NCBI RefSeq assembly: GCF_022557175.1
Contig: NZ_CP092915.1
Coordinates: forward strand, 4,340,001-4,404,000
DNA from: Mycolicibacterium sp. YH-1
GTDB taxonomy: Bacteria > Actinomycetota > Actinomycetes > Mycobacteriales > Mycobacteriaceae
Reading direction: 5' to 3'
DNA: 64,000 nt
A program made the translations under genes and the position numbers. This document shows positions 27,764 to 46,294 of this stretch, in pieces. The notes under the pieces were generated by a model. It ran no database searches. It had not been told where the DNA came from and saw nothing but the letters and a program-made list of their open reading frames with translations. Positions within the stretch are counted from its first letter, which is position 1. Each line of letters begins with the position of its first letter.

Positions 27764-27790
27764 TAACACTTACCATGAAGTTTGTAACGC
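27764..27790. promoter_or_regulatory. Conserved regulon element (copy E): TAACA-N14-TGTAA
   Basis: Upstream of the acyl-CoA dehydrogenase gene. TAACACTTACC and TTTGTAACGC have the same 14-nt spacing between core half-sites as four other copies in the window. It is the most divergent of the five at the half-sites (TAACA for TGACA, ACGC for AAGC). Confidence 0.6.
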
Positions 27791-27846
27791 AATCCGGCGG
27801 GCCACCCCGGGCGTTGTGGCGATTTCGGCGCGCTAAGGAGCGGTGA

Positions 27847-27862
27847 GCGCGCCTTTGCGCGC
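27847..27862 (-). terminator. GC hairpin after the APH-like gene
   Basis: GCGCGC-CTTT-GCGCGC forms a 6-bp stem with a 4-nt loop, 14 nt beyond the stop of the phosphotransferase gene. There is no T tract. It separates that gene from the acyl-CoA dehydrogenase transcript. Confidence 0.45.
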
Positions 27863-27876
27863 CCGAATCGCAGGGG

Positions 27877-29004
27877 TTAGGCGGCCTGCCGCAGCGCCGC
27901 GACGGTTTCCAGGTCCTGGACGGCGGCCACCGCCCGGGCCAGCCCCTCCAACGCGATGCCCTCGGTCTGCATACCTCCGAGACCCGCGGTGGTCAGCGGC
28001 GACACGTAGGCGTACGTCACCGCCTGCCGGTAGCGGGTCCACAACTCGTCGCGGTCCAACTCGGGGCCACCGGCCGCCGCCAGCGCGCCTCGGTAGACGT
28101 CGAGCAGATCCCGCTCGGCGGCGCGACGTTGGTCCACCGGGAGGCCGAGCACCAGCGTGTAGGTGAGATCGCGCGACGGGTGTCCACGGCGCACCACCTG
28201 CCAGTCCAGCAGACCCGCACGCCCGTCGCGGAAGTAGGTGTTGCCGGGATGGGAGTCGCCGTGCAGCACAGTGTGTGTGCCCGCGTCGACGATCTCGGTG
28301 GCGCGCTGGTAGTTCTCCCACAGATACCGGCCCGCCTCGATCGGCACGTCTGTCCGGTCCGCGAGCTTGCGGGCCGACATCCTCATCAGCGCCGGGGTGA
28401 GCAGGTTGGCGGGATCCTGCGACGGTGCCGCAAGCCAGCCGAATGCGCCACCGCCACCGGGCTTCTCGGGTAACCGGCCCCAGAAACTGCCGTGCAGACC
28501 GGCCAGGACCTCCATCAGGCTGGCCATCTGGTCGGTGTCGAGCGGATTGAGCGTGTCGGGGAACTGACACGGCGCCGTGGTCATGTCCTCGAGGACCACC
28601 ACGTAGCGTCCGGTGAGCGGGTCGAACGCCGCACCGTGAGAGCGTGGGATGCCCGCCCCGAGTTCCGGTGCCAGCGCCGCGTAGAACCGGGCCTCGGTCT
28701 CACCGAGACGGGCGAGTTCGCCCAGCATCCGAGTGGCCGCGGTGGCAGCCGAGAGCTTGACGAACACCGACTCGGGAACGTCGCGACCCGACAGCGCCAG
28801 CCGAGCCCGCGACGATGTCCCCGCCTCCCCCTCCAGGACGGTCACCGAATCGACGGTGCGTCGCATCACCTTCGACAACACCTCGGGCCCGAGATCGGCG
28901 ACGCGGCGCGGGAAGGACCGCGCCCGCCCGAGCGCGGCGTCCACGGCCAGTCGCCCGACCCCGTGCCCCATGTGTGCGCCCAGCCGTACCGCTCGGATCA
29001 CCAT
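27877..29004 (-). CDS. Aminoglycoside-phosphotransferase-like kinase family protein
   Basis: 375 residues. The Brenner catalytic motif is HTVLHGDSHPGNTYF and the metal motif LLDWQVVRRGHPSRDL, as in APH/choline-kinase-fold proteins. An ATP-site lysine is likely in VFVKLSAA. In mycobacterial degradative clusters such proteins often accompany acyl-CoA dehydrogenases, with unknown substrates. Divergent from the SRPBCC gene with the conserved motif (29039-29065) in between. It is not evidence of drug resistance. Confidence 0.88.
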   Translation of the reverse strand: MVIRAVRLGAHMGHGVGRLAVDAALGRARSFPRRVADLGPEVLSKVMRRTVDSVTVLEGEAGTSSRARLALSGRDVPESVFVKLSAATAATRMLGELARLGETEARFYAALAPELGAGIPRSHGAAFDPLTGRYVVVLEDMTTAPCQFPDTLNPLDTDQMASLMEVLAGLHGSFWGRLPEKPGGGGAFGWLAAPSQDPANLLTPALMRMSARKLADRTDVPIEAGRYLWENYQRATEIVDAGTHTVLHGDSHPGNTYFRDGRAGLLDWQVVRRGHPSRDLTYTLVLGLPVDQRRAAERDLLDVYRGALAAAGGPELDRDELWTRYRQAVTYAYVSPLTTAGLGGMQTEGIALEGLARAVAAVQDLETVAALRQAA

Positions 29005-29038
29005 TGTTCGCCGCCTCCTGCTCGTTTCGAACCAAGCG

Positions 29039-29065
29039 TGACAATTCGGCCACGATTTGTAAAGC
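29039..29065. promoter_or_regulatory. Conserved regulon element (copy A): TGACA-N14-TGTAA
   Basis: Lies in the 101-nt region between the APH-like gene and the SRPBCC gene. TGACA at 29039-29043 and TGTAA at 29058-29062, followed by AGC. Core and spacing are identical to copies B, C and D. Confidence 0.7.
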
Positions 29066-29105
29066 TAATCCGTGACAGTCATCGACCATCGAGAGGCCAG
29101 CGCAC

Positions 29106-29588
29106 GTGGGAATCGTCACGACCACTTCGGAGACCGCATTCACCCAGTCACCGGAGACGATCTACGACTTCGTCACCAACCCGGTGAACTGGACCAAGAC
29201 CTACCCGGGCAGTTCCCACGTCGGCAGCGTCACCAACGACCTGCCACTGAAGGTCGGCGACACCTGGACCGAGGCGGGACCGGACGGCGACCGCATCTTC
29301 ACCTGGCACCTCGCGATCGCCATGCGCCCGAAGATGTGGGTGTTCAACTCGGTGGGGCGACTCGGCCACGACCCCGAGGGCAACGGCGGTATGCCGGGCC
29401 GGATCACCGTCAAGTATCAGTTCACCCAGCCGGGGCAGGGCATAACGCTGTTCGCGCGGACCATGACCATCGAGGGCTACCGGGACGCTCCCCTGCCTGA
29501 CGGCTTCTTCAAGATCGTCAACCCGGCCAACATCGACAAGTATCACGCCGCCATCGCACGCGAACTCGACTCGGCCGCAACCGCTTAG
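29106..29588 (+). CDS. SRPBCC (START-like) family protein
   Basis: 160 residues from GTG 29106, with GAGAGG upstream. It has the ligand-binding helix-grip pattern: TTTSETAFTQSPETIYDFVTNPVNW at the start and a long C-terminal helix. Such proteins bind or cyclise hydrophobic molecules. The stop codon overlaps that of the convergent esterase gene (shared TTAG at 29585-29588). It sits next to the regulon motif, so probably part of the catabolic response. Confidence 0.82.
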   Translation: MGIVTTTSETAFTQSPETIYDFVTNPVNWTKTYPGSSHVGSVTNDLPLKVGDTWTEAGPDGDRIFTWHLAIAMRPKMWVFNSVGRLGHDPEGNGGMPGRITVKYQFTQPGQGITLFARTMTIEGYRDAPLPDGFFKIVNPANIDKYHAAIARELDSAATA

Positions 29589-30541
29589 GGCCCGGGGTGC
29601 AGGGCCCGACGCAGTGCCTCCCCCTGCATCGCGAAAAGCGCCTGGCTGACGTCCCACTCGGGCAGCAGCGAGTCGAACCCGTGGCACGTGCCGGCAAAGA
29701 CGTGTAGCTCGGTGCCGACTCCGGCCCACATCAGCCGCAGCGCGTAGTCGACGGCCTCATCGCGCAGCGGGTCGAGTTCCGAGCACGTGATGAGTGCGTC
29801 CGCGACCCCGGTGAGCTCGTCACGGCGCGCGGGCACGGCCGACGGGGGCACGGCCTCACCGCCTGAAACGTGGCCCCACATCTGCGATGTGGCTGGCCCG
29901 TCGAAACCCGGCGTGGTGACGAACTCGAACTTCGACGGCGTCGGCCGGTCGTCGAGGACCGGCTGGTGGAGAAGTTGAAACAGCACGGGCGGTGCGTCAC
30001 CGTCCGCCGCCAGCTGAGCAAGCAGCGCGGCGAGTGCGCCGCCGGCACTGCTGCCGGCGACGGCGATTCGGCGCGGATCGATGTCGAGATGATCTGATTC
30101 GGCCACAATCCATTTCAGGACCGCCAGCACATCATCCAGCCCGGCCGGATGCGGATGCTCGGGAGCCAGCCGGTAGTCCACCGACACCACCGTGGCGCCC
30201 GCCCGCCGGGCGAGTTCGACGCATTGACGGTGGTCGATGTCGAGGTTGCCGAGCACGAACGCACCGGAGTGGCAGAACAGCACCGCGGGGGCTCGCGTCA
30301 TCGCACCCCGATAGATGCGGACCCCGATTCCGCGCCCGCGCTCGTCGTGAGCGGTGGCGTCGGTGACATCCACGCCAGCTGTGTCCAGGGCCGCTGTGCT
30401 GGCCTGCCGCCGTTCGTTGATCGAATCCCGCACGGCGGGCAGCAGGTCTGCGGCCAGGTTCACCCGCGCGTCGACCAGGTGGCGCAGCGCGGGCGCCAGC
30501 CGGTGCGTCGTGTCGGCGTCCGACCCGGCATCCGCCGTCAC
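29585..30541 (-). CDS. Alpha/beta hydrolase, HSL/esterase family
   Basis: 318 residues. The hormone-sensitive-lipase signature is present: oxyanion motif FCHSGAFVLGN (HSG in place of HGG), VSVDYRLAPEHPHPA, nucleophile VAGSSAGGALAA, Asp in SELDPLRDEAVDYA and His in GTCHGFD. It hydrolyses short esters. As the last gene of a seven-gene operon whose preceding gene is a Baeyer-Villiger-type monooxygenase (4-nt overlap), it is the natural hydrolase for the ester or lactone produced. Confidence 0.92.
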   Translation of the reverse strand: MTADAGSDADTTHRLAPALRHLVDARVNLAADLLPAVRDSINERRQASTAALDTAGVDVTDATAHDERGRGIGVRIYRGAMTRAPAVLFCHSGAFVLGNLDIDHRQCVELARRAGATVVSVDYRLAPEHPHPAGLDDVLAVLKWIVAESDHLDIDPRRIAVAGSSAGGALAALLAQLAADGDAPPVLFQLLHQPVLDDRPTPSKFEFVTTPGFDGPATSQMWGHVSGGEAVPPSAVPARRDELTGVADALITCSELDPLRDEAVDYALRLMWAGVGTELHVFAGTCHGFDSLLPEWDVSQALFAMQGEALRRALHPGP

Positions 30542-32064
30542 GGCACGTCACCGCCCGCCACGGCATGGGCGTCGACGTGGATATCGGGCCGCTCGGTCGG
30601 TGGTTCGAAGATGTAGTCGCCGGCCCGGAATCGACGCGTCATCGCCCAGAAGTCACGCGCACTGCGCGGCCACTGGGTGACGACACGGCCGTTGGCGGCC
30701 CGAAAGTAACTGCTGCACCGCGTCGTCCACACAGTGCCGTCCATCCACTCGTCGATCCGAGCGATGAAGTCGGCCATGGTCTGCGCCCGCACCGCGACGT
30801 AGGACCGTCTACGCCGCCGCATGTGCCGCAGGGCCTTGACGACGTACCGCGCCTGCGCCTCGAGCATGAAGATGACGCTGTTGGAACCGACGTTGGTGTT
30901 CGGCCCGTACAGCATGAACAGGTTGGGGAAACCAGGGACCGCCATGCCCAGATAGGCGTACGCGCCGTCGCGCCAGGCCTCGTGCAGCGTCTGGCCGTGC
31001 TCCCCCGTCACCTCGATCTGGCCCAGGTAGTCCGCTGCGGCATACCCGGTCGCACACACCACGACGTCGACGTCGAGTTCGCGGCCGTCCTCAGTCACCA
31101 GCGAGCGGGCGCGCAGTGCCCGCGCCGGGCTGGACACCACCTCGACGTGCGACTGCGTGAGCGCGGGCACGAAATCCGACGAGAACACCAATCGCTTGCA
31201 GCCGATGGGCGTCTCGGGCGTGAGGCGCTTGCGCAGGTCGGTGTCGACGACGGTTCGCTCGAGCATCGCCGCAGCCGCCGACCGGAACTCGTGGGTCTTG
31301 TCGCTGCCATGCTCGATCACCGAGATGTTGGACTCGCTGCGCAGCCACAACCGGGTGCGGTAGAGACGCTTGGCGAACGGCACCTTGGCGAAAAGCCACT
31401 TCTCCCGGTCGGTGTACTCGCGGTCGGGTTTGGGCAGGACCCACGTCGGCGAACGCTGGATGGAGTACACACTCCTGGCCACCTTGACGACCTCGGGCAC
31501 CAGTTGTGCTGCGGTGGAGCCCGTTCCGAGCACGGCGACGTCCCTGCCAGTCAGGTCGACGTCGTGGTCCCAGCGCGCGGTGTGCATCACGGTGCCGGTG
31601 AACGGTTCCTCCTCGTGCAGTGTCGGCATCGTCGGCTGGGTGAACAGTCCGACCGCGGACACCACGACGTCGAACACGTGCTCCTCGCCGGTCGCGGTCA
31701 TCAACCGCCAGGTCCTTGACGACTCCTGCCAGCGTGCCGAGGTCACCTCGGTGTTCAGCGTCAGGTGGGGCCCCAACCGGTGCCGCCGCGCGCAGCGTTC
31801 GAAGTACTCCAGGATCTCGGCCTGTCCCGACCACAGCCGCGACCAGCCCGAGTTCAGGTCGAAGGAGAACGAGTACAGGTGCGACTTCACATCGCAGGCC
31901 AGACCCGGATAGGTGTTGATGCGCCAGGTCCCGCCGACGCCATCCTCGCGGTCGAAGATGGTGAAGTTCTCGAGGCCCACCCTCTTGAGGAAAATGCCCA
32001 ACGCCAACCCGCCGGGTCCTGCACCGATGATGCCCACCGAGGGCCCCTTGGACATACCCGTCAT
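30538..32064 (-). CDS. Flavin-containing monooxygenase, Baeyer-Villiger type
   Basis: 508 residues from ATG 32064, overlapping the SDR stop by 4 nt. The FAD Rossmann motif GIIGAGPGGLALG is at the N-terminus and an NADPH motif VLGTGSTAAQL near residue 190. Between them FTGTVMHTARWDH fits the BVMO fingerprint FxGxxxHxxxW. It should insert oxygen next to a ketone, giving an ester or lactone. Neighbouring alcohol dehydrogenases would supply the ketone and the esterase would open the product. Confidence 0.92.
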   Translation of the reverse strand: MTGMSKGPSVGIIGAGPGGLALGIFLKRVGLENFTIFDREDGVGGTWRINTYPGLACDVKSHLYSFSFDLNSGWSRLWSGQAEILEYFERCARRHRLGPHLTLNTEVTSARWQESSRTWRLMTATGEEHVFDVVVSAVGLFTQPTMPTLHEEEPFTGTVMHTARWDHDVDLTGRDVAVLGTGSTAAQLVPEVVKVARSVYSIQRSPTWVLPKPDREYTDREKWLFAKVPFAKRLYRTRLWLRSESNISVIEHGSDKTHEFRSAAAAMLERTVVDTDLRKRLTPETPIGCKRLVFSSDFVPALTQSHVEVVSSPARALRARSLVTEDGRELDVDVVVCATGYAAADYLGQIEVTGEHGQTLHEAWRDGAYAYLGMAVPGFPNLFMLYGPNTNVGSNSVIFMLEAQARYVVKALRHMRRRRRSYVAVRAQTMADFIARIDEWMDGTVWTTRCSSYFRAANGRVVTQWPRSARDFWAMTRRFRAGDYIFEPPTERPDIHVDAHAVAGGDVP

Positions 32065-32804
32065 CCGATCCGCAGCGATTGGCCACCGTCGACCACGAGT
32101 TCGGAGCCGGTGATGAACGATGCGGCGTCCGACACCAGGAATGCCACGGCGTCGGCGACCTCGAAGGGCTTTCCGAGCCGCCCACCGGTCGACATCTCGG
32201 TGAGCCGCCGCTGGGTGTTCTCGTCGAGCATCGGGGTCTCGATCGGGCCGGGAAGCACGGCGTTGACTCGGATTCCGGACGGTGCCAGCTCGGCCGCCGT
32301 GATCTGGGTGAGCCCGCGCAGCGCCCATTTCGACGAACCGTAGGCGGCGTGGTTGGGGAACGGCCGGACGGCCCCGGTGCTGCAGGTGTTGACGATCGCG
32401 GCACCGTGGGCCTGCCTCAGGTGCGCCAGCGTGGCGCGGATACCGAGGAAGGGGCCGAGGCAGTTGACCCGCCAGCTGCCCTCGAAACCGGCCGGGGTCT
32501 CCTCGGACAGCGATGCGCGGTGCAGGACGCCAGCGTTGTTCACCAGTGCGCTCAGGCCGCCGAAGCGAGCCACCACGGTGCGCACGGCCACATCCCACTG
32601 CTCCTCGGAGGTGACGTCGAGCGGCACGGCAATGACGTCGTCACCGGATCCGGTGGTCTCGCGCAGCTCGTCGGCGTTTCGGTCGCACGCGGCCACCAGG
32701 AATCCATCGGCACGCAGCCTGGCCACGATCGCCGCGCCCTGTCCGCGGGCCGCGCCCGTGACAAGGGCCACCCTGGCGTCGGTTGTGGTCTCGCTCGTGG
32801 TCAG
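32061..32804 (-). CDS. Short-chain dehydrogenase/reductase, probable CTG start
   Basis: About 247 residues. Cofactor motif ALVTGAARGQGAAIV, NNAG motif ALVNNAGVL, catalytic YGSSKWAL, and C-terminus FITGSELVVDGGQSL. No ATG, GTG or TTG lies in frame between the upstream stop and the first conserved residues. The likeliest start is CTG at 32804, overlapping the aldolase stop (CTGA), with GGGGGA 6 nt upstream. It probably oxidises an alcohol to a ketone before the BVMO step. Confidence 0.85.
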   Translation of the reverse strand: MTTSETTTDARVALVTGAARGQGAAIVARLRADGFLVAACDRNADELRETTGSGDDVIAVPLDVTSEEQWDVAVRTVVARFGGLSALVNNAGVLHRASLSEETPAGFEGSWRVNCLGPFLGIRATLAHLRQAHGAAIVNTCSTGAVRPFPNHAAYGSSKWALRGLTQITAAELAPSGIRVNAVLPGPIETPMLDENTQRRLTEMSTGGRLGKPFEVADAVAFLVSDAASFITGSELVVDGGQSLRIG

Positions 32805-33589
32805 TGGTATCCCCCATCGTTGGACGTCGATTCGTCGGCGTGCTCGGTTGCGGTGGCCAAATGTCGTGCGGCGCCCAGGCGCAGGGACTGCGACTCCGAG
32901 GCCAGGGTGATGACGCGGAAGCCCATCGCCGCAGCGGTGCGGCTGATGGCGCCATCGCCCGCGTGCACGCCGGCGATCAAGCCTGCGGCGGTGGCGCGGG
33001 AGACGATGTGCGCCATCGCGTCCAGCACCGCAGGGTGCCGCCATGCGTCAGCCAGGGTGTGGCCCATCGAGATGGCCAGGTCGGCCGGTCCGACATAGAC
33101 ACCGCTAAGCCCTGGGACCGCGCAGATCTCGTCGACGGCGGCCACACCGCGGGCGGTCTCGATCATCACGTGCACGCTCACCCGATCCTGCAGATGGGCG
33201 ATGTCGTGGCCGAGGCTGGCCCGCAGCGGTCCGAAGCTGCGCACGCCGGCCGGAGCGAAACGCGTCGCGGCCACCGCCTCTGCGGCCTGCTCCGGCGTCT
33301 CGATCATGGCGATGATGATCGCGTCGGCGCCCGCATCGAGCACCCGGCCTATCGGCGCGGGGGCGGTGGACGGGAGCCGGACGGCGGTGGCGATCGGCAG
33401 GTGCTCGGTGCCCTTGAGTAGCAGCGCGACGTCGGCGTCATCGAGATATCCATGTTGGCAGTCGAATCCGACGTAGTCATAGCCCGTCTGCGCGAAGGCC
33501 TCGGGTCCCGTCATGGTGGGACCCACCACCCAACCGCCCCACACCTGGGCGCGCTGAGCGAGTGAGTCGATGAGCCTTCCGCCGGTCAT
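32801..33589 (-). CDS. HpcH/HpaI aldolase/citrate lyase family protein
   Basis: 262 residues from ATG 33589 (overlaps the ADH stop by 4 nt). Class II 2-oxo-acid aldolase features: GFDCQHGYLD, the metal ligand Glu in HVMIETARGVAAVDEI and the metal Asp in YVGPADLAISMG. It would cleave a 4-hydroxy-2-oxo acid to pyruvate or a related keto acid plus an aldehyde. That fits a late step, upstream of the aldehyde dehydrogenase at 46 kb. Middle of the seven-gene operon. Confidence 0.9.
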   Translation of the reverse strand: MTGGRLIDSLAQRAQVWGGWVVGPTMTGPEAFAQTGYDYVGFDCQHGYLDDADVALLLKGTEHLPIATAVRLPSTAPAPIGRVLDAGADAIIIAMIETPEQAAEAVAATRFAPAGVRSFGPLRASLGHDIAHLQDRVSVHVMIETARGVAAVDEICAVPGLSGVYVGPADLAISMGHTLADAWRHPAVLDAMAHIVSRATAAGLIAGVHAGDGAISRTAAAMGFRVITLASESQSLRLGAARHLATATEHADESTSNDGGYH

Positions 33590-34554
33590 GGCACGATCGC
33601 GATCTTCACGCGGCCGGGTGTGGGCCGGCATGCGGTCTCGAACGCCGCCTGCACGTCGGCGGTCCGGAACGTGTGGGTGAGGTATTCCGTCAACAGGTCG
33701 GGGTGTGCGGCGGCGAACGCCGACGCCGCGGTGAGCATGCGCCGACGCTCCAGTGTCACACCAGATTTCAGGGTCAGGTTGTTACGCAGCATGGTGCGCA
33801 TGCTGATCGGATAGGTGTCATCGTCGGTCACGCCGAAGTAGAAGACGGTGCCGCCGAACGCGGCTGCCTCAATGGCGTGGCCGAGCGTTGCGACCTGGTG
33901 GCCCACGGCCTCGATGACCACGTCAGGGCGTTCGGCCGGATCGAGGTGGCGGATCCAGCGGTCACTTGTCGCGCGCACGACGCGGTCGACGCCGAATCGC
34001 GGCCCGAGGGTCTCGCGGTCGACGGGGTCCACACCGGTGACCAGAGCAGCACCCGCAGCTTTCGCCACGTACGAGAACAGCAGGCCGATCGAGCCCTGTC
34101 CGATGACGGCGACGTGTCTGCCCGCGAGATCGCCCAGCTGCTCGACCGCGTAGAGCACGCAGGCCAGCGGCTGCAGACCGATCGCGAGTTCCGGTGTGAG
34201 CGAGGGCTCGTAGCGGACCAATCCCTCGCCGTCGGCGACGACCTGGTCCATCAGGCCGTCGAAACCCGATGCCCAGCCCACGACGCGGTCGCCGCGGGTG
34301 TGCTCGGGGTGGCGGCTGGCCACGACCTCGCCCGCGATCTCGTGGACGGGGAATCCGTGCATCCCGGCGGCACACGCGCCGATGTCACCGGGCAGTCGGC
34401 CCTGTGTGCCGCGAAATCCCGGCAGGTCACTACCGCACACACCAGCGGCCAGGAACTGCAGCAGCACCTGCCCGTCGGCCAGCGACGCCGGCGAGGGCTC
34501 GGGCTGCTCGGTGCGTTCGAATGTGTACGGCGCGATGAGTCGGTACGACCACAC
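33586..34554 (-). CDS. Medium-chain zinc-type alcohol dehydrogenase
   Basis: 322 residues from GTG 34554, 3 nt after the P450 stop. Zinc ligands are likely Cys in AAGVCGSDL and His-Glu in HGFPVHEIAGEV. The cofactor Rossmann motif is HVAVIGQGSIGLLF. The structural-zinc four-Cys loop is missing. It is similar to threonine/sorbitol dehydrogenase-like members. It should oxidise the alcohol made by the adjacent P450. Confidence 0.88.
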   Translation of the reverse strand: MWSYRLIAPYTFERTEQPEPSPASLADGQVLLQFLAAGVCGSDLPGFRGTQGRLPGDIGACAAGMHGFPVHEIAGEVVASRHPEHTRGDRVVGWASGFDGLMDQVVADGEGLVRYEPSLTPELAIGLQPLACVLYAVEQLGDLAGRHVAVIGQGSIGLLFSYVAKAAGAALVTGVDPVDRETLGPRFGVDRVVRATSDRWIRHLDPAERPDVVIEAVGHQVATLGHAIEAAAFGGTVFYFGVTDDDTYPISMRTMLRNNLTLKSGVTLERRRMLTAASAFAAAHPDLLTEYLTHTFRTADVQAAFETACRPTPGRVKIAIVP

Positions 34555-34557: not shown

Positions 34558-35787
34558 TCAGTGACCTCCGGTCTGGACCGTCACGGGGATGTTGTTCCAG
34601 CCCCACTGGAAACTCGACGGCGGACGCCACGCGGCCTCGGTGTCGACGCGGAACTCGGGCACCCGCTTGAGCCACTCGGCGACCAGGATGCCGATCTCGA
34701 GGCGCGCCAGATGCACGCCAAGGCAGAAGTGCTGACCTCGACCGAACGCCAGGAGTCGCTCGATGGGCCGGTTCCAGATGAACTCGTCGGGATCGGCGTA
34801 CTCGCGTTCGTCGCGCGAGGCCGACGCGAGCAGCGTGATGATGCGTTGACCCGGTTCGATCGTGGTGCCGTGCAATGTAAATGGGGTACGCACGGTGCGG
34901 GCGAACCACTGTGCGGGTGCGCAGAAGCGGATCATCTCCTCGCGCGCGACAGCCACGTTGGACTCCAGATCGGCACGCACGGCGGCGAGTTGGTCTGGAC
35001 GCTGCGACAGTTCCCACAGACCGTGCGCGACGATCTTGGGCACGGTCTCGGTGCCACCGATGAACACTCCGAGCATCTGCGTGGCGGCCTCGGTGTCGGA
35101 GAGCGCCGACCCGTCCGGCAGCCGGTAGTTGATCAGGCCGTCGACGATCGGCTGGCTGCCGTCGGCGCCCTCGGCGCGTCGGCGTACGACGATCGGTGTC
35201 AGGTACTCGAGATAACCGGGCCGGGCATTGGCGGTGTTGACACCGTCACCCGGTTTGGCGAGGCTGCCCGCGTTCACCGTGGCCAGCACATCGGGCGCCA
35301 GCTCGTCAGGCAGACCGACCAGGTGACACACCATTGACGCCGCGACGACGCCGCCGTAGTCCTGGGTCAGGTCGAAGTTGCCCTGCGGCAGCAGGACATC
35401 CAGCCGCTCGTTGGCCAGTTCACGGATGCGGTCAGCCAGTCCCGCGACGTTGCGCGGCCGCAGCGGCTTCGAGTGCGCGCCCCGGACACCACCGTAGATC
35501 GGGTTGTCGAAGTTGGCGTGAAACGGCATCGGATGCACCGGCGGATCGGGCACCGGCCCGTCGTTGTGGTGTGCCAGAACCGTCGCGGCAGGCAGGGTGC
35601 CCTCCGACGCCACGAAGGTTCCGTCGTTGATCTCCAACACATCCCACACGTCGGCGAAACGCGACACCGCGTAGGTGTCCCATTTCTCGACGTAGTACAG
35701 CGGGTGGCGGTCGCGCAGCACCCGGTAGTGCGGAAACGGGTCGGCCATCACCGCCGGATCGAATGGATCATACGAGAAGTCCTGCAT
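34558..35787 (-). CDS. Cytochrome P450
   Basis: 409 residues from ATG 35787 (AGAGG upstream; ATG 35802 and GTG 35814 are also in frame). The haem-Cys motif is FGRGQHFCLGVHLARLE, the I-helix oxygen motif is FIGGTETV, and the K-helix ExxR is in EEMIRF. It hydroxylates an unknown substrate. It sits second in the operon, behind the NIPSNAP-like gene and just before alcohol dehydrogenase. The nearest ferredoxin is at 42250-42441. Confidence 0.93.
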   Translation of the reverse strand: MQDFSYDPFDPAVMADPFPHYRVLRDRHPLYYVEKWDTYAVSRFADVWDVLEINDGTFVASEGTLPAATVLAHHNDGPVPDPPVHPMPFHANFDNPIYGGVRGAHSKPLRPRNVAGLADRIRELANERLDVLLPQGNFDLTQDYGGVVAASMVCHLVGLPDELAPDVLATVNAGSLAKPGDGVNTANARPGYLEYLTPIVVRRRAEGADGSQPIVDGLINYRLPDGSALSDTEAATQMLGVFIGGTETVPKIVAHGLWELSQRPDQLAAVRADLESNVAVAREEMIRFCAPAQWFARTVRTPFTLHGTTIEPGQRIITLLASASRDEREYADPDEFIWNRPIERLLAFGRGQHFCLGVHLARLEIGILVAEWLKRVPEFRVDTEAAWRPPSSFQWGWNNIPVTVQTGGH

Positions 35788-35810: not shown

Positions 35811-36515
35811 TCACTGCAGCGGCGAGGGTGGGAGGGCCTGGAGAATGGAGTCCTCCCAGCCGTCGCGTAGAGCGGGCGCGAGCCTCATCCACGTGACGAT
35901 CTCGGCGGGCGGCTGGTCCTTCCACGACGGGTAGTGGTTCTCGAAGCACTCCCAGTCCCCGTCGAGCGCCCAGTAGTGGATCACCTCGTTGAACCGGAAC
36001 GTCGTGGTGAAGGACCCCAGCCAGCGCTTGCCCGTGCTCTCCGACCACGGCACGTACAACCGTTCCAGTTCCTTGATGTAGTCGTCCTGGCGCCCTGGCT
36101 TGGTCTGCATGATCTCCTGGATCACCAGTCCCGCCTTGAAATCGGCCGCCTTGAGTTCGGCGAGGTTCTTGTTCTGCGGGGCGGCGTACATGATCCGCCC
36201 CTCGCCCGTGGCGCCGGTGTCGGCGAGATAGGTCGCCCACGTGGTGGCGGCATCGGCGTGTGTTCCGCCGCGCGCCTGGGCCTTACCGATGCGCGCGTAG
36301 TCGGCGAAGGCGTCGATCTCCCAGATGATGGTGACCTGCGGCCAGTGCCCGTTGTAGGGCGTGGACTCCCAGATTGTGAAGAGTCGCGCGCCGAGATCGG
36401 ACATCATCGGGTGATAGACCTCGTCGAACGCCTTGGTGAACTGATCGCTGCGTCCGGAACCGAGGGCGATGGTCTCGTGCAGGTACAGAAGCGTGTGGCT
36501 GTGATACTTCCGCAT
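35811..36515 (-). CDS. NIPSNAP-like dimeric alpha-beta barrel protein
   Basis: 234 residues. Two ferredoxin-like repeats are suggested, one around LLYLHETIALGSGRSDQFTKAF and one around VIQEIMQTKPGRQDDYIKEL. Each begins with a strand then an amphipathic helix, as in NIPSNAP/ABM-type barrels that bind or rearrange small aromatic or cyclic molecules. There are no clear catalytic residues. It is the promoter-proximal gene of the seven-gene operon (35811-36515 down to 29585). The regulon motif lies 72 nt upstream. Confidence 0.78.
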   Translation of the reverse strand: MRKYHSHTLLYLHETIALGSGRSDQFTKAFDEVYHPMMSDLGARLFTIWESTPYNGHWPQVTIIWEIDAFADYARIGKAQARGGTHADAATTWATYLADTGATGEGRIMYAAPQNKNLAELKAADFKAGLVIQEIMQTKPGRQDDYIKELERLYVPWSESTGKRWLGSFTTTFRFNEVIHYWALDGDWECFENHYPSWKDQPPAEIVTWMRLAPALRDGWEDSILQALPPSPLQ

Positions 36516-36586: not shown

Positions 36587-36613
36587 TGACACTTGTGGCG
36601 TGTTTTGTAAAGC
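36587..36613. promoter_or_regulatory. Conserved regulon element (copy B): TGACA-N14-TGTAA
   Basis: Located in the 128-nt divergent region between the NIPSNAP-P450 operon and the SMP-30 gene. TGACA 36587-36591, TGTAA 36606-36610, followed by AGC. It could serve both transcripts. Confidence 0.7.
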
Positions 36614-36643: not shown

Positions 36644-37468
36644 ATGAGCCCGACGCCATTGGCCAATGGATTCTGTTTTGGTGAGGGACCGCGGTGGTTC
36701 GAGGGCCTGCTCTGGTTCTCGGACATGCTCGGCGAGGCCGTGCACACCGTGGACCTCAACGGCGCGACCAGCACCCTGCAACTACCCGGCAGAGCGCCGT
36801 CCGGGCTGGGTTTCCGGCCCGACGGAACGCTGCTGATCGTCTCCACCGAGGATCGTCAGGTGCTCCGCTACGACGGTGACCACGTGACCGTGCTGGCCGA
36901 CCTGGGCGACCTGGTGCCCGCCAATCTCGGCGATATGGTGATCGACGCCCGTGGTGCCGCCTTCGTGGGATCGCAGGCCCGAGAGGGGGGTGTCATCGTC
37001 CGCATCGACCCTGATGACACCGCCTCCGTCGTGGCAGGCGACCTCGACTTCCCCAACGGCATGGTCATCACCCCGGACGGCGACACGCTTGTCGTCGCCG
37101 AGTCGACGGGACGCCGACTCACCGCGTTCACGGTCACGACCGACGGTGCGCTGGTCGATCGACGGGTGTTCGCCGACGGCCTCGACGGACCCCCCGATGG
37201 CCTGGCGATCGACAACGAGGGCGGGGTGTGGACAGCCATGACACTGGCCCACCAGTTCGAGCGAATCACCGACGGCGGCAACGTGACCGATCGCATCGAC
37301 ATGGCGGGGCGTACCGCCATCGCCTGCGCCCTGGGCGGTCCCGACGGACGCACGCTGTTCCTGCTGTCCAGCACCGACGCGTATCCCGAACGTCTGATCG
37401 GCACCAAGGCGTCACGCGTCGACGCGCTGATGGTCGACGTGCCCGCCCCGGGTCGATTCGGGCACTGA
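36644..37468 (+). CDS. SMP-30/gluconolactonase family protein
   Basis: 274 residues. Six-bladed propeller hydrolase with metal ligands visible as Glu in GEGPRWFEG, Asn in FPNGMVITPDGD and Asp in PPDGLAIDNEG. It opens lactones using a divalent metal. Placed opposite the BVMO operon and sharing its regulatory region, it is a plausible lactonase for a BVMO product. The thioesterase-like gene follows after 29 nt. Confidence 0.9.
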   Translation: MSPTPLANGFCFGEGPRWFEGLLWFSDMLGEAVHTVDLNGATSTLQLPGRAPSGLGFRPDGTLLIVSTEDRQVLRYDGDHVTVLADLGDLVPANLGDMVIDARGAAFVGSQAREGGVIVRIDPDDTASVVAGDLDFPNGMVITPDGDTLVVAESTGRRLTAFTVTTDGALVDRRVFADGLDGPPDGLAIDNEGGVWTAMTLAHQFERITDGGNVTDRIDMAGRTAIACALGGPDGRTLFLLSSTDAYPERLIGTKASRVDALMVDVPAPGRFGH

Positions 37469-37497
37469 GGAAATTGGGCACTGACGGAAAGTTGAAG

Positions 37498-38310
37498 ATG
37501 TCTGACTCCTACTACGAACTCGTCGACACCGATGACGCAGGCGAGCGTTTCCGCGCGACCGACCTGGTGCGCGGCACGTGGAATGCCTCGATCCAGCACG
37601 GTGCCCCCGTATCGGCGCTGCTGGTCCGTGCGCTGGAACGCTGCGCGCCGCGCGATGACACCAGGCTCAGCCGCGTGATGATCGACCTGGTCGGCGGCGT
37701 GCCCGCAGAGGGTGACCTGTGGTTGCGCGCTCAAGTCGACCGTCCGGGCAGGCAGATCGAACTGGTCAGTGCGGAACTACTCGCCCCTGACCGCGACGGT
37801 GCACCGCGGACCGTCGCGAAGGCAAGCGGTTGGCGGCTGTCCACCCTCGACACCACAGCGGTCGTACACGCGCCCGCGCCCGCACTCGCGCCGCTGGCGC
37901 AGGCGAAGAGCCGCGATATGGCCAAGAATTGGGACCGCAACTACGTGCACAGCATCGACTGGCGCTGGCTCACCACGCCATTGGCCGACGGGCCCGGCGA
38001 ATCCTGGCTGCGGCCGACCGTGGACCTCGTGAAGGGCGAGACGATGACGCCGCTGCAGCGGCTGTTCACGGTCGCCGACGATGCGAACGGCATCGGCACC
38101 AAGCTCGACATCCGGCGCTGGACGTTCATGAACACCGACCTGGTCGTGCATGTGCACCGCGTGCCCGAGGGTGAGTGGATCGGCATCCGGGCCGAGACGA
38201 GCTACGGGCCCGATGGCATCGGGACCACGTTCGGCACGCTGTTCGACGCCCACGGTGCGATCGGCGGCATTCAGCAGTCGGTGCTGGTGCGGCCGATGCC
38301 GTCGCGTTAG
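37498..38310 (+). CDS. Acyl-CoA thioesterase family protein (TesB-like double hotdog)
   Basis: 270 residues from ATG 37498. The N-terminal hotdog has NASIQHGAPVSALLVRALERC. The C-terminal half ends with MNTDLVVHVHRVPEGEWIGIRAETSYGPDGIGTTFGTLFDAHGAIGG (quoted only to locate it; the key features are DLVVHVHR and GTLFDAHG), the TesB/thioesterase-like double-hotdog pattern with DxHG. It may release or recycle CoA from cluster intermediates. Co-transcribed with the SMP-30 gene. Confidence 0.85.
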   Translation: MSDSYYELVDTDDAGERFRATDLVRGTWNASIQHGAPVSALLVRALERCAPRDDTRLSRVMIDLVGGVPAEGDLWLRAQVDRPGRQIELVSAELLAPDRDGAPRTVAKASGWRLSTLDTTAVVHAPAPALAPLAQAKSRDMAKNWDRNYVHSIDWRWLTTPLADGPGESWLRPTVDLVKGETMTPLQRLFTVADDANGIGTKLDIRRWTFMNTDLVVHVHRVPEGEWIGIRAETSYGPDGIGTTFGTLFDAHGAIGGIQQSVLVRPMPSR

Positions 38311-40490: not shown

Positions 40491-40492
40491 TC

Positions 40493-41029
40493 TCAATTGC
40501 GGAACGCCATCCGCCCCAGCATCCCGTCCCGCAGTGTCAGGGTGTGCAGCAGGACCGCCGAGACATGCGCCGCAACGAGGACGACCAGCGTGTAGGCGAG
40601 CAGCGAATGACCGTTCCGCAGAAGCGCATACAGGCCCGCATCGACGGGAGCGATGGCGGGTAACCGGACAGAACCGATAACGACGGGCACACCGGCGGCC
40701 GCCAGCATGGCCCAACCCACCAATGGTTGAGCCAGCAGCGCGGCATACATCGCCACTTCTGATCCAACGACTGCCCGGCGTTCCCACCGCCCCACCGTTG
40801 CGGGAAGCGCGGGCGCGCGGTGGCGCAACCGGTTGACCACTCGGGCGATGATCACGATGAACACCAGCGCCCCGATGATCTTGTGCAGCATCAGCAGCGC
40901 CGCATAGTCCGCCAGCGCATTCGCCAGCGCGAAGCCGACGATGAGCGCGGCGAAAACCAGGACTGCGGTCAGCCAGTGCATCACACGGATGGACAAACTG
41001 TAGCGGCCGCTATTCGGTGGACGGGTCAT
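40493..41029 (-). CDS. Cytochrome b561 (YodB-type) membrane protein
   Basis: 178 residues with four membrane helices. Haem-ligand His candidates are in SIRVMHWLTA, LLMLHKIIGA, RNGHSLLAY and AAHVSAVLLH. It passes electrons between quinol pool and an extracytoplasmic partner. Start overlaps the catalase-family stop by 4 nt (ATGA). The pairing suggests it feeds electrons to, or accepts them from, the membrane-anchored haem peroxidase upstream. Confidence 0.92.
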   Translation of the reverse strand: MTRPPNSGRYSLSIRVMHWLTAVLVFAALIVGFALANALADYAALLMLHKIIGALVFIVIIARVVNRLRHRAPALPATVGRWERRAVVGSEVAMYAALLAQPLVGWAMLAAAGVPVVIGSVRLPAIAPVDAGLYALLRNGHSLLAYTLVVLVAAHVSAVLLHTLTLRDGMLGRMAFRN

Positions 41030-42129: not shown

Positions 42130-42165
42130 TGTGCGCTCCTACCATCGCGAGGTCTCCTGCGAGGG

Positions 42166-42194: not shown

Positions 42195-42249
42195 TCGCCG
42201 ACGGGATGTGTGACCCACATCACAATCTATGCGCGTGGACGGAGGCCGC

Positions 42250-42441
42250 TCAAGTCGACAGGCGAAGCGCGGCGGCAGGGCACTGAGTGACGGCCTGCTT
42301 CATACGGTCGAGGTCGCCGTCTGGGCGGTCACCGTCGTGAATCACGACGCTGCCGTCATCGGTCACCTCGAACACGTCCTCTGCGATTGACTCGCAGATG
42401 CCGTGTCCGGTGCACTTTCCGAGATCGACGTCTACCCGCAT
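42250..42441 (-). CDS. [3Fe-4S]-type ferredoxin
   Basis: 63 residues. Cluster ligands are in KCTGHGICE (Cys-x5-Cys, the second ligand position of a 4Fe ferredoxin replaced by His) and TQCPAAAL. This is the P450-partner type. It starts 13 nt after the stop of the adjacent P450 gene on the same strand and should reduce that enzyme, and perhaps the P450 at 34558. No ferredoxin reductase gene is in the window. Confidence 0.94.
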   Translation of the reverse strand: MRVDVDLGKCTGHGICESIAEDVFEVTDDGSVVIHDGDRPDGDLDRMKQAVTQCPAAALRLST

Positions 42442-42454
42442 ATCGCCTCCGGCC

Positions 42455-43720
42455 CTACTTGACCACGGCCGGCAGCCGCTTGATGCCGTGCACGAAGTTG
42501 CTGTGCAGCAGTTCGGGCTCGCCGAACTCGACATGCTTGAGCCGGGTGAGCAACTCGCGGAACAGGTTTCGCAGCTCGGTCCGTGCCAGCTGGTTGCCAA
42601 GGCAGAAGTGCGGACCACCGCCGCCGTACCCGACGTGCGGATTGGGCGAGCGGCTCAGATCGAATGCCCCCGGCGCATCGAACACCGCCTCGTCGCGATT
42701 GGCCGAACAGTAGAACAGCCCGACCTTCTCCCCCGCGGCGATGGGCTGCCCGGCAATCTCGGCGTCCTGGGTCGCGAACCGGGCGAACTGCAGCACCGGC
42801 GAGGACCATCGGACGAACTCCTCCACGGCAGTGCCGATGCGCCCGTCGAAGTCCGCCATGAGCCAATCCCGCTGGTCGGGGTTGGCGGATAGCGCCAGCA
42901 TGGCGTGGGAGGTCGCCTGCTTGGTGGTGTCGTTGCCCGCAGAGGCGAGCAGGATCAGGAACGCACCCATCTCCTCGTCGGTGAGCCTCTGGCCATCGAC
43001 CTCCGCGTTGACCATCGCGGTCATCAGATCGTCGCCGGGGTTGGCGCGCCGAAACTTGGCCAACTCGGCACCGGTGCTGGCCAGCAGCATGATCTCGCTG
43101 ATGGTGTCGGCGGCGCGCTCCTCCAGCGAGCTGTACTCGTCATCGCTCATGCTGAACAGCTTCTCGGCGGCCGCGGCCACGGCCGGCTGGTCAGACCCGG
43201 GAACTCCGAGCATCTTCATGATGGTCAGCATCGGCAGGCGAGCCGAACATGCTGAGACAAAGTCGATCTCGCCCGCGCCGACGAGATCGTCGACGACGGC
43301 GACCGCCGTGTCGTGGATCTGTTCATCGATTCGGCGGACGTTCTTCGGCGTGAACGCCGAGCTGACCAACTTCCGGTAGACGGTGTGCTGCGGGGGGTCC
43401 ATGGCCAGGAAGAACGACGCCATCCGCTGCACTTCGGCGGGCATCGGATCCAGCGCCACGCCCTGGGCCGAGGTGAACAACTCGGGATGCTGACTGACGT
43501 AGGTGACGTCGGCACGGCGGGTCAACGCCCAGAACCCGGGCTCGACGAGGTCGAACAGCGAGGGCAGCGGCTTGTGCCAGGACAGCCCGTCGGCACTCCG
43601 CAACTGCGCGAAGGTCCGATCCCGCTCGTCGAACGGCTGCGCCCAGAAGTGGTGGGAGGTGATGTCGAATGGGCTGTACTCACGCTGCTTCGGCGAGCTG
43701 GCGACGGTCAATTGACGCAT
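42455..43720 (-). CDS. Cytochrome P450 (CYP124/125/142-like)
   Basis: 421 residues from ATG 43720 (MRQLTVASS). Haem motif YGGGGPHFCLGNQLARTELR, I-helix LASAGNDTTKQ, K-helix EEFVRWSSPV. The GGGGPHxCLG form is typical of mycobacterial P450s that oxidise sterol, branched-lipid or terpenoid chains. It has its own ferredoxin gene downstream. It is divergent from a TetR gene with the regulon motif between them. Confidence 0.93.
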   Translation of the reverse strand: MRQLTVASSPKQREYSPFDITSHHFWAQPFDERDRTFAQLRSADGLSWHKPLPSLFDLVEPGFWALTRRADVTYVSQHPELFTSAQGVALDPMPAEVQRMASFFLAMDPPQHTVYRKLVSSAFTPKNVRRIDEQIHDTAVAVVDDLVGAGEIDFVSACSARLPMLTIMKMLGVPGSDQPAVAAAAEKLFSMSDDEYSSLEERAADTISEIMLLASTGAELAKFRRANPGDDLMTAMVNAEVDGQRLTDEEMGAFLILLASAGNDTTKQATSHAMLALSANPDQRDWLMADFDGRIGTAVEEFVRWSSPVLQFARFATQDAEIAGQPIAAGEKVGLFYCSANRDEAVFDAPGAFDLSRSPNPHVGYGGGGPHFCLGNQLARTELRNLFRELLTRLKHVEFGEPELLHSNFVHGIKRLPAVVK

Positions 43721-43773
43721 CCTCTGCAATGGCCGGCAGGCTGCGCCAGCGAATCGGAACGACTCAACTAGCG

Positions 43774-43800
43774 TGACACTTGGCATAATATTTGTAAAGC
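43774..43800. promoter_or_regulatory. Conserved regulon element (copy C): TGACA-N14-TGTAA
   Basis: In the 88-nt gap between the P450-ferredoxin operon and the TetR gene. TGACA 43774-43778, TGTAA 43793-43797, then AGC. The TetR GTG start lies 8 nt after the element. Confidence 0.72.
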
Positions 43801-43808
43801 TATTGCTC

Positions 43809-44366
43809 GTGTCGCACACGCCGCGTCCCGAAACGCAACCGCTCGAGGACCAGGACGATAACTCGACGAGAGAGCGAATCCTGGCTGCCACCGCCGAGGT
43901 GCTCGGCCGCAGCGGCGCCACCAAGCTGAGCCTGTCCGAGGTGGCGATCGAGGCGGGCCTGTCCCGCCCCACGCTGTACCGCTGGTTCGATTCCAAGCGC
44001 GGTCTGCTGGACGCATTCGTGGTGTGGGAGCGCGAGTCCTACGAACACGCCATCGCCAAGGCCACCGCGGGGCTGCCGACCGAGGATCGTCTCGACGCCG
44101 CGCTGCGCACCATCGTGGCCTACCAGCGATCCTATCCGGGACTCCGGGTGGTCGAAATCGAACCGGAGTACGTCATCAGGCGTCTGGCTGCCGCGATCCC
44201 GCTGCTGCGATCCCGGTTGGAACGCCTCATACCGGGACCCAGTGGAGCCGACGCGGCGGCGACGGTGGTGCGCGTCGCCATGTCGCACTACCTAGTGCGC
44301 AGCGATGACGATGAGGACTTCCTTGCCCAACTTCGGCACGCCGCAGGAATCAAGCCGACGAGCTGA
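43809..44366 (+). CDS. TetR family regulator (paralogue 1)
   Basis: 185 residues from GTG 43809. HTH: KLSLSEVAIEAGLSRPTLYRWFDSKRGLLDAF. The C-terminus (VRVAMSHYLVRSDDDEDFLAQLRHAAGIK) is shared almost exactly with the second TetR at 45686, so the two are duplicates. The conserved element ends 8 nt upstream, as expected for autoregulation. An upstream in-frame ATG (43773) overlaps that element and is not used. Best candidate for the regulator of the catabolic regulon. Confidence 0.9.
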   Translation: MSHTPRPETQPLEDQDDNSTRERILAATAEVLGRSGATKLSLSEVAIEAGLSRPTLYRWFDSKRGLLDAFVVWERESYEHAIAKATAGLPTEDRLDAALRTIVAYQRSYPGLRVVEIEPEYVIRRLAAAIPLLRSRLERLIPGPSGADAAATVVRVAMSHYLVRSDDDEDFLAQLRHAAGIKPTS

Positions 44367-44396
44367 CGGGTCGTGCCTGCAACGGCAATCCGACCG

Positions 44397-45569
44397 TCAG
44401 CGCCGCGACCGGCGATCGGCGATCTCATCGAGGATCTCGTCGGTGTGCTCACCCAGTTTCGGCGCCGCCGATCGGGGTTCCCATGGTGTGCCACCGAAGT
44501 CGGCGGGTGTGGCGACCATCGGCTGGGAGCCGTCACCATCGGGCACCTGCACCAACCCGCCTGCCGCGTGGAACTGATCGTCGGCCAGGACGTCGATGAT
44601 GGAGTTGATCGGCGACCAGAAGAAGTCAGGCTCGGCGTCGAAGACCTCCGCCCACTCGTCCAGCGATCGCGTGACAAACACGGCGTCCAGTTCGGCGATG
44701 AGATCGATTGCGTTGCAGGCTCGTCCATAGGCGGTCGCGTATCGGTCATCCGTGAGCCAGTCGGTGCGCCCCACTGCACGACACAGCGCGGGCCAGTGCC
44801 GATCCCCTTGCAGTCCAACGATCCAGAACCGCCTCCCGTCGGCCGTCGCGTAGTTGTTCACGCACGGGTTGCCCATGGTCTCGCGCTGCCCGACCGCGAT
44901 TTGCTGGCCCGTCAGCAGAAGCGTGTTCAGGTCGAAGCTGATGGTGTAAGCACCCTGGCGGTACAGCGACGTGGTCACCAACTGCCCCTGCCCGCTACTG
45001 TGCCGCGCGACGAGGGCGGCACAGATCGCCGCGGCCAGCGTCATACCCGCGGAGTGGTCGCCCATCCCGCCCCGCTGGAACGGCGGCACGTCACCGGGGC
45101 GAGTCAGCAGATCGGCCAGGCCCGAGCGGGCCCAGAACGCAGCAATGTCATACGCGGCCCGGTCGGCATCCGCGCCGTCGGTGCCGTATCCGGTGATCAG
45201 GCCGTACACCAGCCGCGGGTTGCTGGCGGCGAGCGTGGCGAAATCCAAACCGAGGCGCGCCAGAGCACCAGGACGGATGTTCGTCACGAATACGTCGGCG
45301 TCGGCGAGTAATTCGAGCGCCACCGCCATGCCGTCGTCGGTCGTGAGGTCGAGGACGATACTGCGTTTGGACCGGTTGTCCATCTCGAACGGCGGGTTCT
45401 CGCCGGTGTCGATCTGCAGCATCCTGCCGAACATGCGCGCCGGGTCGCCCTGGGGCGGTTCGACCTTGATCACGTCGGCACCCCAGTCGGCGAGAATGCC
45501 ACCCGCCGCGGGTCCGGCGACCCACACGCCGAGTTCGACGACCTTGATGCCTGCCAGCGGTCCGGCCAT
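44397..45569 (-). CDS. CaiB/BaiF family CoA-transferase
   Basis: 390 residues. Class III CoA-transferase: N-terminal GIKVVELGVWVAGPAAGGILADWGADVIKVEPPQGDPAR region, MDNRSKRSIVLDL, and the catalytic Asp in GGMGDHSAGM. It moves CoA between an acyl-CoA donor and a carboxylic acid, providing activation without ATP. In this context it would activate the acid formed by the aldehyde dehydrogenase for the acyl-CoA dehydrogenase. Convergent with TetR 1 and divergent from TetR 2. Confidence 0.93.
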   Translation of the reverse strand: MAGPLAGIKVVELGVWVAGPAAGGILADWGADVIKVEPPQGDPARMFGRMLQIDTGENPPFEMDNRSKRSIVLDLTTDDGMAVALELLADADVFVTNIRPGALARLGLDFATLAASNPRLVYGLITGYGTDGADADRAAYDIAAFWARSGLADLLTRPGDVPPFQRGGMGDHSAGMTLAAAICAALVARHSSGQGQLVTTSLYRQGAYTISFDLNTLLLTGQQIAVGQRETMGNPCVNNYATADGRRFWIVGLQGDRHWPALCRAVGRTDWLTDDRYATAYGRACNAIDLIAELDAVFVTRSLDEWAEVFDAEPDFFWSPINSIIDVLADDQFHAAGGLVQVPDGDGSQPMVATPADFGGTPWEPRSAAPKLGEHTDEILDEIADRRSRR

Positions 45570-45632
45570 AGCCGACCTCCTCGGGTGCGTCGGCGATCGC
45601 GCCGTTGGCCGCCCTCGCGTCCTCCGGGTACC

Positions 45633-45656
45633 TTACGATCGACCTCACGTTCGTAT
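45633..45656. promoter_or_regulatory. Palindrome TACGA-N12-TCGTA, possible relaxed regulon site (F)
   Basis: Perfect 5-bp inverted repeat (45634-45638 and 45651-45655) in the 116-nt gap between the CoA-transferase and TetR 2. Read as TTACG-N14-CGTAT it has the same geometry as the TGACA-N14-TGTAA elements. A candidate operator for TetR 2. Confidence 0.4.
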
Positions 45657-45685
45657 TGCTCGAGGCGCGCCGAGGAGGTGCTCAG

Positions 45686-46249
45686 ATGAATGAACCGGCA
45701 TCAGCCGACCGGGACGCTCCGGACTTCGGCGACGACACCTCGACCCGGCAACGAATTCTGGCCGCCACCGCCGAAGCGCTTGCACGCAGCGGTCAGACCA
45801 AGCTGAGCCTGTCGGAGGTCGCGATTCAGGCTGGCGTGTCCCGCCCCACGCTCTACCGCTGGTTCGCGTCGAAGTCCGATCTCCTCGATGCCTTCGGGAC
45901 CTACGAGCGTGACATGTTCGACTCGGGGATCACCAAGGCAACCGCCGGACTACGCGGCAACGAGAAACTCGATGGCGCGTTGAAGTTCATTGTCGACTAC
46001 CAGTACTCCTACTCGGGTGTGCGCCTTATCGACATCGAACCCGAGGTGGTTATCGCACAGCTGACAACGGTGATCCCGCGGGTGCGGAACCACCTGGAAC
46101 GCATGCTGCAGGGACCCAACAAGTCGGTGAAGGCCGCGACCGCCGTCCGGGTCGCGGTGTCGCACTACATCGTTCGCAGTGATGACAAGGACCAGTTCCT
46201 CGCCCAGCTGCGACACGCCGTGGGTATCAAGTCGCCAACGAACGACTAG
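45686..46249 (+). CDS. TetR family regulator (paralogue 2)
   Basis: 187 residues from ATG 45686, RBS GAGGAGGT. HTH: KLSLSEVAIQAGVSRPTLYRWFASKSDLLDAF. It is collinear with paralogue 1 along the whole length (compare ATAEALARSGQTKLSL with ATAEVLGRSGATKLSL). It lies 52 nt upstream of the aldehyde dehydrogenase, with regulon copy D in the gap. Confidence 0.9.
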   Translation: MNEPASADRDAPDFGDDTSTRQRILAATAEALARSGQTKLSLSEVAIQAGVSRPTLYRWFASKSDLLDAFGTYERDMFDSGITKATAGLRGNEKLDGALKFIVDYQYSYSGVRLIDIEPEVVIAQLTTVIPRVRNHLERMLQGPNKSVKAATAVRVAVSHYIVRSDDKDQFLAQLRHAVGIKSPTND

Positions 46250-46267
46250 GCCAAACGTCCAAACGCA

Positions 46268-46294
46268 TGACACTTGGCGGATAGTTTGTAAAGC
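46268..46294. promoter_or_regulatory. Conserved regulon element (copy D): TGACA-N14-TGTAA
   Basis: Between TetR 2 and the aldehyde dehydrogenase. TGACA 46268-46272, TGTAA 46287-46291, then AGC; the ALDH ATG follows 7 nt later. ATGACA could double as a -35 element, so the site may overlap the core promoter. Confidence 0.72.

Follow-up and report, generated by a model that had tools for sequence, protein, structure and literature searches.

The element TRACA-N14-TGTAA (R, A or G; N14, 14 bases of any kind) occurs five times in a 64,000-nucleotide stretch of the Mycolicibacterium sp. YH-1 genome, bases 4340001-4404000 of a 7.27-Mb single contig, referred to here as the window. We propose that it is the operator of a subfamily of TetR-family repressors encoded in the same gene cluster, TetR1 (43809) and its paralogue TetR2 (45686), which would control a set of catabolism genes. 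We put the probability of this reading, which rests on sequence comparison, at about 0.87. A preliminary description of this DNA had taken the element as the mark of a TetR-dimer regulon, and this is supported by sites at orthologous genes in other genomes, by the co-occurrence of TetR and motif, by the half-sites beside diverged TetRs, and by a palindromic form of the site.

The five copies begin at 27764, 29039, 36587, 43774, and 46268, all on the plus strand and all with exactly 14 bases between the half-sites, as had been claimed. This compares with 0.01 matches expected in the window, and none of 100 shuffles gave five. Searching the window for TDACA-Nk-TGTHA with other spacers gave zero matches for N5 to N30 and one for N4. 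We also scored the window with a 44-column matrix whose 236 training sites, collected with TDACA-N14-TGTHA, come from other genomes; of the 80 loci taken there, which include several strains of a single species, 76 contributed sites. The matrix puts exactly these five places at the top of the window, with scores from 47.7 down to 19.1 (see the table); the runner-up scores 1.0, and the best place in 20 shuffled windows, which preserve base composition only, scores 12.2. A chance origin is ruled out by the expected count, the enrichment of N14 alone, and the matrix ranking. With the start codons chosen in our analysis, all five copies are indeed intergenic; the choice for the second cytochrome P450 of the cluster (P450b) is backed by alignment to CYP268A2. 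The gaps to the start codons are 10-71 bp, which is consistent with a roadblock at the promoter or start. Other parts of the earlier account need trimming. Its extended 27-bp form fits four of the five copies with up to three mismatches but misses the weak copy at 27764. The element was said to accompany every major transcript; this holds for the flanking transcripts, whereas CaiB (44397-45569), TetR2, and the genes at 39349-42129 have no upstream site in this genome. The common strand sense is real but is not in itself functional evidence, since orientation goes with the conserved gene order.

The same sites are found in other genomes. In the 80 loci, the 236 sites adjoin the same gene pairs: 53 lie between TetR2 and an aldehyde dehydrogenase (ALDH), 49 between CaiB and APH, 45 between P450b and TetR1, 37 between EthD and SMP-30, 12 (in six loci) between P450b and a TetR2-like gene, and 40 in rarer combinations. 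A short sequence repeated within one accessory region could be a dispersed repeat without function. We give this next to no credence, because the same gene pairs carry the element across species, the inner bases vary, and none of the 236 sites falls within any detected homologue of 21 window genes. For single genes the analysis covered the 30 top-ranking loci, that of YH-1 among them. An exact site lies just upstream of the acyl-CoA dehydrogenase (ACAD) gene in 27 of these (best of 119 matching genomes); the window's orientation, with the TGACA or TAACA half towards ACAD, is kept in 26 of the 27, and the remaining site is symmetric. For SRPBCC (best of 74), 21 loci have a site at most 250 bp upstream, and the other 9 have one about 810-870 bp upstream. 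ACAD and SRPBCC diverge around a single operator in 11 of the 30 SRPBCC loci; in the window, the two genes are separated by APH and by two operators (27764 and 29039), so that the arrangement here looks like an insertion of APH carrying its own site. Across a sample of 248 genomes of the genus, a strict pattern, TGACAMTT-N9-TTTGTAA, is present in 174, and the reversed pattern, our control, in 0.

The core of the site is a 24-bp imperfect dyad, TKACA-N14-TGTAA. Partly conserved flanks, also symmetric but weaker (AGC to the left, AGCT to the right), extend it to an imperfect dyad of about 32 bp overall. Eight columns of the matrix (1, 3-5, 20-22, and 24) are conserved by construction, because the training sites were found with TDACA-N14-TGTHA. 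The free columns are also biased: A at 23 reaches 95%, T at 19 reaches 91%, T at 18 and A at 25 reach 88%, G at -3 reaches 83%, and G at 2 reaches 73%. An imperfect dyad fitting TetR dimers had been claimed from the window copies, and the CaiB|APH class bears this out, with the palindromic TTACA-N14-TGTAA in 49 of 49 sites. Spacing is strict, with 236 N14 sites in the 80 loci against 13 for all other spacers from N6 to N22 in total; in 20 further loci, most of them around diverged TetRs, the count is 32 against 4. These features bear on whether the element might be a directional promoter, that is, a sigma-factor or activator site. TGACA resembles a -35 core, all five elements have one orientation, and an ECF sigma gene lies in the window. 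Even so, this is very unlikely: the sense of the site relative to ACAD is opposite to that before ALDH, the CaiB|APH sites and many of those beside diverged TetRs are palindromic, and tblastn finds no match to the ECF sigma, anti-sigma, cytochrome b561, and catalase-like genes (39349-42129) in the examined stretches of the 80 related loci.

Both candidate regulators pass the TetR_N domain test (PF00440, cut-off 24 bits; scores in the table). They are 64% identical and have a common recognition helix, SRPTLYRWF. TetR1 is 185 residues long with a single TetR_N match, and its AlphaFold model (pLDDT 93.6) has nine helices in a TetR-like fold. Its best PDB matches in Foldseek are TetR-family regulators (best E, 3.3e-5); the 50 matches listed, which include FasR, KstR, and EthR2, reach query TM-scores of 0.44-0.70, and not one of them is close. 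NCBIfam gives no TetR name above cut-off. In public genome records, TetR2 is closest to mycobacterial proteins, above all to one from Mycolicibacterium lacusdiani (81% identity). With 150 of 161 candidates scored, no third TetR of this genome matches TetR1 at E<=1e-15. A dyad operator lies beside TetR1, 11 bp upstream of its start.

Motif and regulator go together across the genus. A strong TetR1 homologue (E<1e-39) is encoded in 207 of the 248 genomes, and 174 of these carry the strict motif; none of the other 41 does (Fisher, 8.5e-27). The tallies here and for the relaxed pattern below were joined by hand, and neither they nor the Fisher value allow for kinship among the genomes. A relaxed pattern, counted in genomes at least 90% complete and leaving out 11 (G522-G532) in which the TetR was not searched, occurs in 190 of 202 genomes with the homologue and in 5 of 35 without; these 35 hold six matches against four for the control.

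Diverged TetRs provide the strongest test. Seven genomes have a TetR only 53-57% identical, and in five of them a two-mismatch variant adjoins it, for example TGACACTCTCGCTATTTTTTGTAAAGT; L170 and L173 have none. Further relatives, about 40-55% identical and mostly with other neighbour genes, comprise 12 distinct TetRs at 109-185 bits, six in the same genus and six in two other genera, after L174 and L225 (frame artefacts of the neighbouring gene) and L176 (a duplicate of L224) were dropped. A half-site pair is centred 34-49 nt from the start of the helix-turn-helix (HTH) in 11 of the 12. In the twelfth (L216, helix SRMTLYRFF), the pair lies between the TetR and the next P450. The L216 stretch (1-20000) has three TetR paralogues of the subfamily, several P450-like genes, and three variant sites beside or between the TetRs. 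Five TetRs at 80-88 bits, all in the same genus, gave no half-site pair (0 of 5). Because the diverged TetRs keep the half-site pair with mostly other neighbours, we assign the binder to the TetR1/TetR2 subfamily.

The TetR at 43809 had been named as the probable regulator. The subfamily is supported; with 64% identity and a common helix, TetR1, TetR2, or both may act. The two might also split the sites between them, TetR1 acting at P450b/TetR1 and perhaps SMP-30, TetR2 at ALDH and the others, in overlapping regulons with different inducers. Many of the 80 loci have both TetRs, the two have diverged outside the helix, and inner sequences differ between site classes. We nevertheless regard such a division as rather unlikely. 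The recognition helix is the same, and the outer bases are alike across classes, in part due to the search pattern. Moreover, L145, L150, and L152 show one subfamily TetR in the stretch examined and yet keep the P450b site, as do L148, L155, and L158, which have one subfamily TetR plus one of 46-48% identity.

The putative TetR1/TetR2 operator is wide. The half-site centres are 19 bp apart; for typical TetR proteins, the accessible part of one paper gives palindromes of 18-21 bp (PMC11667970). Beside TetR-P450 pairs in another genus (L208 and L209), the site has a doubled form, TTACA-N4-TTACA-N5-TGTAA-N4-TGTAA, and L207 has a four-half-site form with TGACA as one outer half. This form holds two staggered 24-bp units plus an inner 15-bp dyad of ordinary spacing. 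We tentatively suggest that the regulon is genus-wide and undescribed, with a non-canonical TetR operator that may be too long for a single ordinary dimer and would need two dimers or an opened dimer, the mycobacterial site being half of the L207-L209 composite.

Genome-wide searches show how far the half-sites can be used. TRACA-N14-TGTAA has 8 matches, 5 of them in the window, against 5 for the reversed control; outside the window, the short exact pattern is at chance level. TDACA-N14-TGTHA is found in 17 places against 10, and from 17 versus 10 and 8 versus 5 it follows that the half-sites alone cannot tell signal from chance outside the cluster. The extended pattern with up to three mismatches gives 8 matches against 3. 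A matrix scan had been proposed as a check, and it is passed in part: in a scan that covered the window plus three stretches elsewhere in the genome, the matrix makes the five sites stand out in the window, whereas the half-sites alone have no genome-wide excess worth naming. Matches at 1275968 and 2073226 scored 8.1 and 7.9, values that fall among the maxima of shuffled windows (up to 12.2), and we set them aside as chance-like. Two operator-like sites 2.5 kb apart, at genome positions 3242634 and 3245112 (L047 8634-8657 and 11112-11135), scored 22.0 and 32.5. The first is directly upstream of an MFS transporter gene. The neighbourhood of the two sites, 1.1 Mb from the window, holds the transporter gene, an acyl-CoA ligase-like (AMP-binding) gene, and genes whose products have no Pfam hit. 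Among the 30 best MFS loci (own included; of 35 matching genomes), 9 have an exact upstream site, against about 0.03 predicted by the rate in this genome, 2 more have a site with a single mismatch, and 19 have none. From these matches, the MFS carrier is probably a member of the regulon, likely but not universal, and the regulon would reach beyond the window.

Several observations weigh against a TetR1/TetR2 operator. A distance of 19 bp between half-site centres exceeds that expected for a single canonical TetR dimer. No operator precedes TetR2 in this genome, and of the 30 best MFS loci no more than 9 have an exact site. The strict pattern is missing in 33 of 207 TetR-positive genomes and the relaxed one in 12 of 202, and the co-occurrence test counts genomes that share phylogeny. 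Finally, the five motif-less TetRs have nearly the same helix (VSRPTIYRYF, in one case VSRPTLYRYF), and the recognition-helix residues are invariant across motif-bearing and motif-less TetRs. The helix alone therefore cannot explain specificity, and residues outside it must matter.

The transcripts adjoining the five sites comprise 18 genes, close to the 20 or so that had been estimated: LLM-ACAD, APH, SRPBCC, a seven-gene operon (EthD-P450a-alcohol dehydrogenase-aldolase-short-chain dehydrogenase-Baeyer-Villiger monooxygenase [BVMO]-esterase), SMP-30-thioesterase, P450b-ferredoxin, TetR1, and ALDH-SnoaL. Operons were inferred from gene order and overlap. P450b matches CYP268A2 at 432 bits, a reconstructed CYP125-type ancestor at 361, and CYP124 at 321. 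Substrates of CYP268 and CYP124 are branched or terpenoid lipids, and from this likeness and substrate class our guess is that the pathway is a route for a branched, terpenoid-like ketone. Genes for a zinc-finger anti-sigma factor, an ECF sigma factor, a cytochrome b561, and a catalase-like protein lie inside the catabolic region on the minus strand (39349-42129), with no operator.

Table. Predicted operators and genes of the cluster (positions in the window; scores in bits unless marked as matrix scores)
Feature	Position	Strand	Basis and remarks
Luciferase-like monooxygenase (LLM)	25563..26561	-	PF00296; overlaps ACAD
Acyl-CoA dehydrogenase (ACAD)	26524..27720	-	Pfam search
Operator 1 (TAACA...TGTAA)	27764..27787	+	Weakest copy; 43 bp before ACAD start; matrix 19.1
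APH/EcKL-like kinase	27877..29004	-	Pfam search
Operator 2	29039..29062	+	Between divergent APH and SRPBCC; matrix 42.3
SRPBCC protein	29106..29588	+	Label from preliminary description; zero Pfam hits; orthologues elsewhere
Alpha/beta hydrolase (esterase)	29585..30541	-	PF07859
Baeyer-Villiger-type flavin monooxygenase	30538..32064	-	Closest solved structures are monooxygenases of that type
Short-chain dehydrogenase	32061..32798	-	Pfam search
HpcH/HpaI aldolase	32801..33589	-	Pfam search
Zinc alcohol dehydrogenase	33586..34554	-	Pfam search
Cytochrome P450 a (distantly CYP130-like)	34558..35787	-	Family and sequence comparison
EthD/NIPSNAP-like protein	35811..36515	-	PF07978; first operon gene
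Operator 3	36587..36610	+	Between divergent seven-gene operon (EthD/NIPSNAP first) and SMP-30; matrix 43.3; class found in 37 of 80 loci
SMP-30/gluconolactonase-like lactonase	36644..37468	+	PF08450
Acyl-CoA thioesterase-like protein (4HBT_3)	37492..38310	+	Family search
Ferredoxin	42250..42441	-	Family search
Cytochrome P450 b	42455..43711	-	Closest CYP268A2
Operator 4	43774..43797	+	Between divergent P450b-ferredoxin and TetR1; matrix 47.7; class found in 45 of 80 loci
TetR1, candidate regulator	43809..44366	+	PF00440, 45.1; operator 11 bp upstream of start
CaiB	44397-45569		No upstream site
TetR2, paralogue, second candidate regulator	45686..46249	+	PF00440, 42.8; no upstream operator here
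Operator 5	46268..46291	+	18 bp past TetR2 stop, 10 bp before ALDH start; matrix 43.4; class found in 53 of 80 loci
Aldehyde dehydrogenase (ALDH)	46302..47798	+	Family search
SnoaL/NTF2-like protein	47795..48241	+	Family search

We infer that binding would repress rather than activate. With the inducer absent, TetR would occupy the operators 10-71 bp from the start codons and block the flanking operons, tetR1 included. A substrate or intermediate of the pathway, perhaps a branched ketone, a terpenoid-like compound, or its CoA ester, would bind TetR and cause it to leave the DNA. The 18 genes would then come on together, supplying the P450-ferredoxin, BVMO, esterase, lactonase, dehydrogenases, aldolase, ACAD-LLM, thioesterase, ALDH, and others, and the unlinked MFS carrier would probably be induced along with them. 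If so, a P450/BVMO degradation cluster widespread in mycobacteria acquires a concrete regulator-operator pair, and the ligand that releases TetR would indicate the pathway substrate. The matrix could assign more genes to the pathway, as for the MFS carrier. The exact N14 spacing, together with the composite form in relatives, would offer a clean case for studying how half-sites set far apart are recognised by TetR proteins.

No description of the element or its TetR was found in a literature search that was weighted to open access and dependent on wording, so that absence is unproven. KstR and KstR2 are TetR repressors of mycobacterial cholesterol-catabolism regulons, with many operators. KstR is among the listed fold matches of TetR1, but TetR1 fails the family test, scoring 24.5 bits with the NCBIfam KstR model against a cut-off of 280, and the KstR operator core is a shorter dyad than TKACA-N14-TGTAA. 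Mce3R is the best PDB sequence match of TetR1 (40.3 bits, HTH only). According to the accessible part of PMC11667970, its conserved operator regions are about 25 bp, but Mce3R is a double-TetR protein (a 406-residue chain) with a non-palindromic site, whereas TetR1 is a single module. The bkaR product, in the portion of PMC3920632 available, is likewise a mycobacterial TetR-type repressor of nearby catabolic genes; its targets, however, are branched-chain keto-acid genes.

A close published parallel is the "motif X" regulon of Rv0767c/G155_05115, which in the accessible text of PMC6593523 combines a TetR-family regulator, a palindromic motif, TetR genes, and operons for P450s and aldehyde dehydrogenases, likewise in a mycobacterium. 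That our element belongs to this steroid regulon is nonetheless very unlikely. The locus of its regulator in this genome encodes a TetR other than TetR1 or TetR2: beside the Rv0768 orthologue at 929051, the adjoining TetR has the helix APATAYTYF, the repeats at this place read TGGACA-N2-TGTCCA, and only TetR1 and TetR2 reach the threshold among the candidates scored against TetR1. As far as the helix and repeats at that locus show, motif X is therefore a different system. The accessible parts of two other papers naming Rv0767c (PMC10312376 and PMC4482099) give no motif letters. The locus itself (L177, genome ~929000) has two TGGACA-N2-TGTCCA repeats, which are a candidate for motif X. Judged by its recurrence in most of the mycobacterial genomes sampled, the TetR1/TetR2 system is very probably a genus-wide addition to the known class of TetR-controlled catabolic regulons, distinguished by its wide operator.

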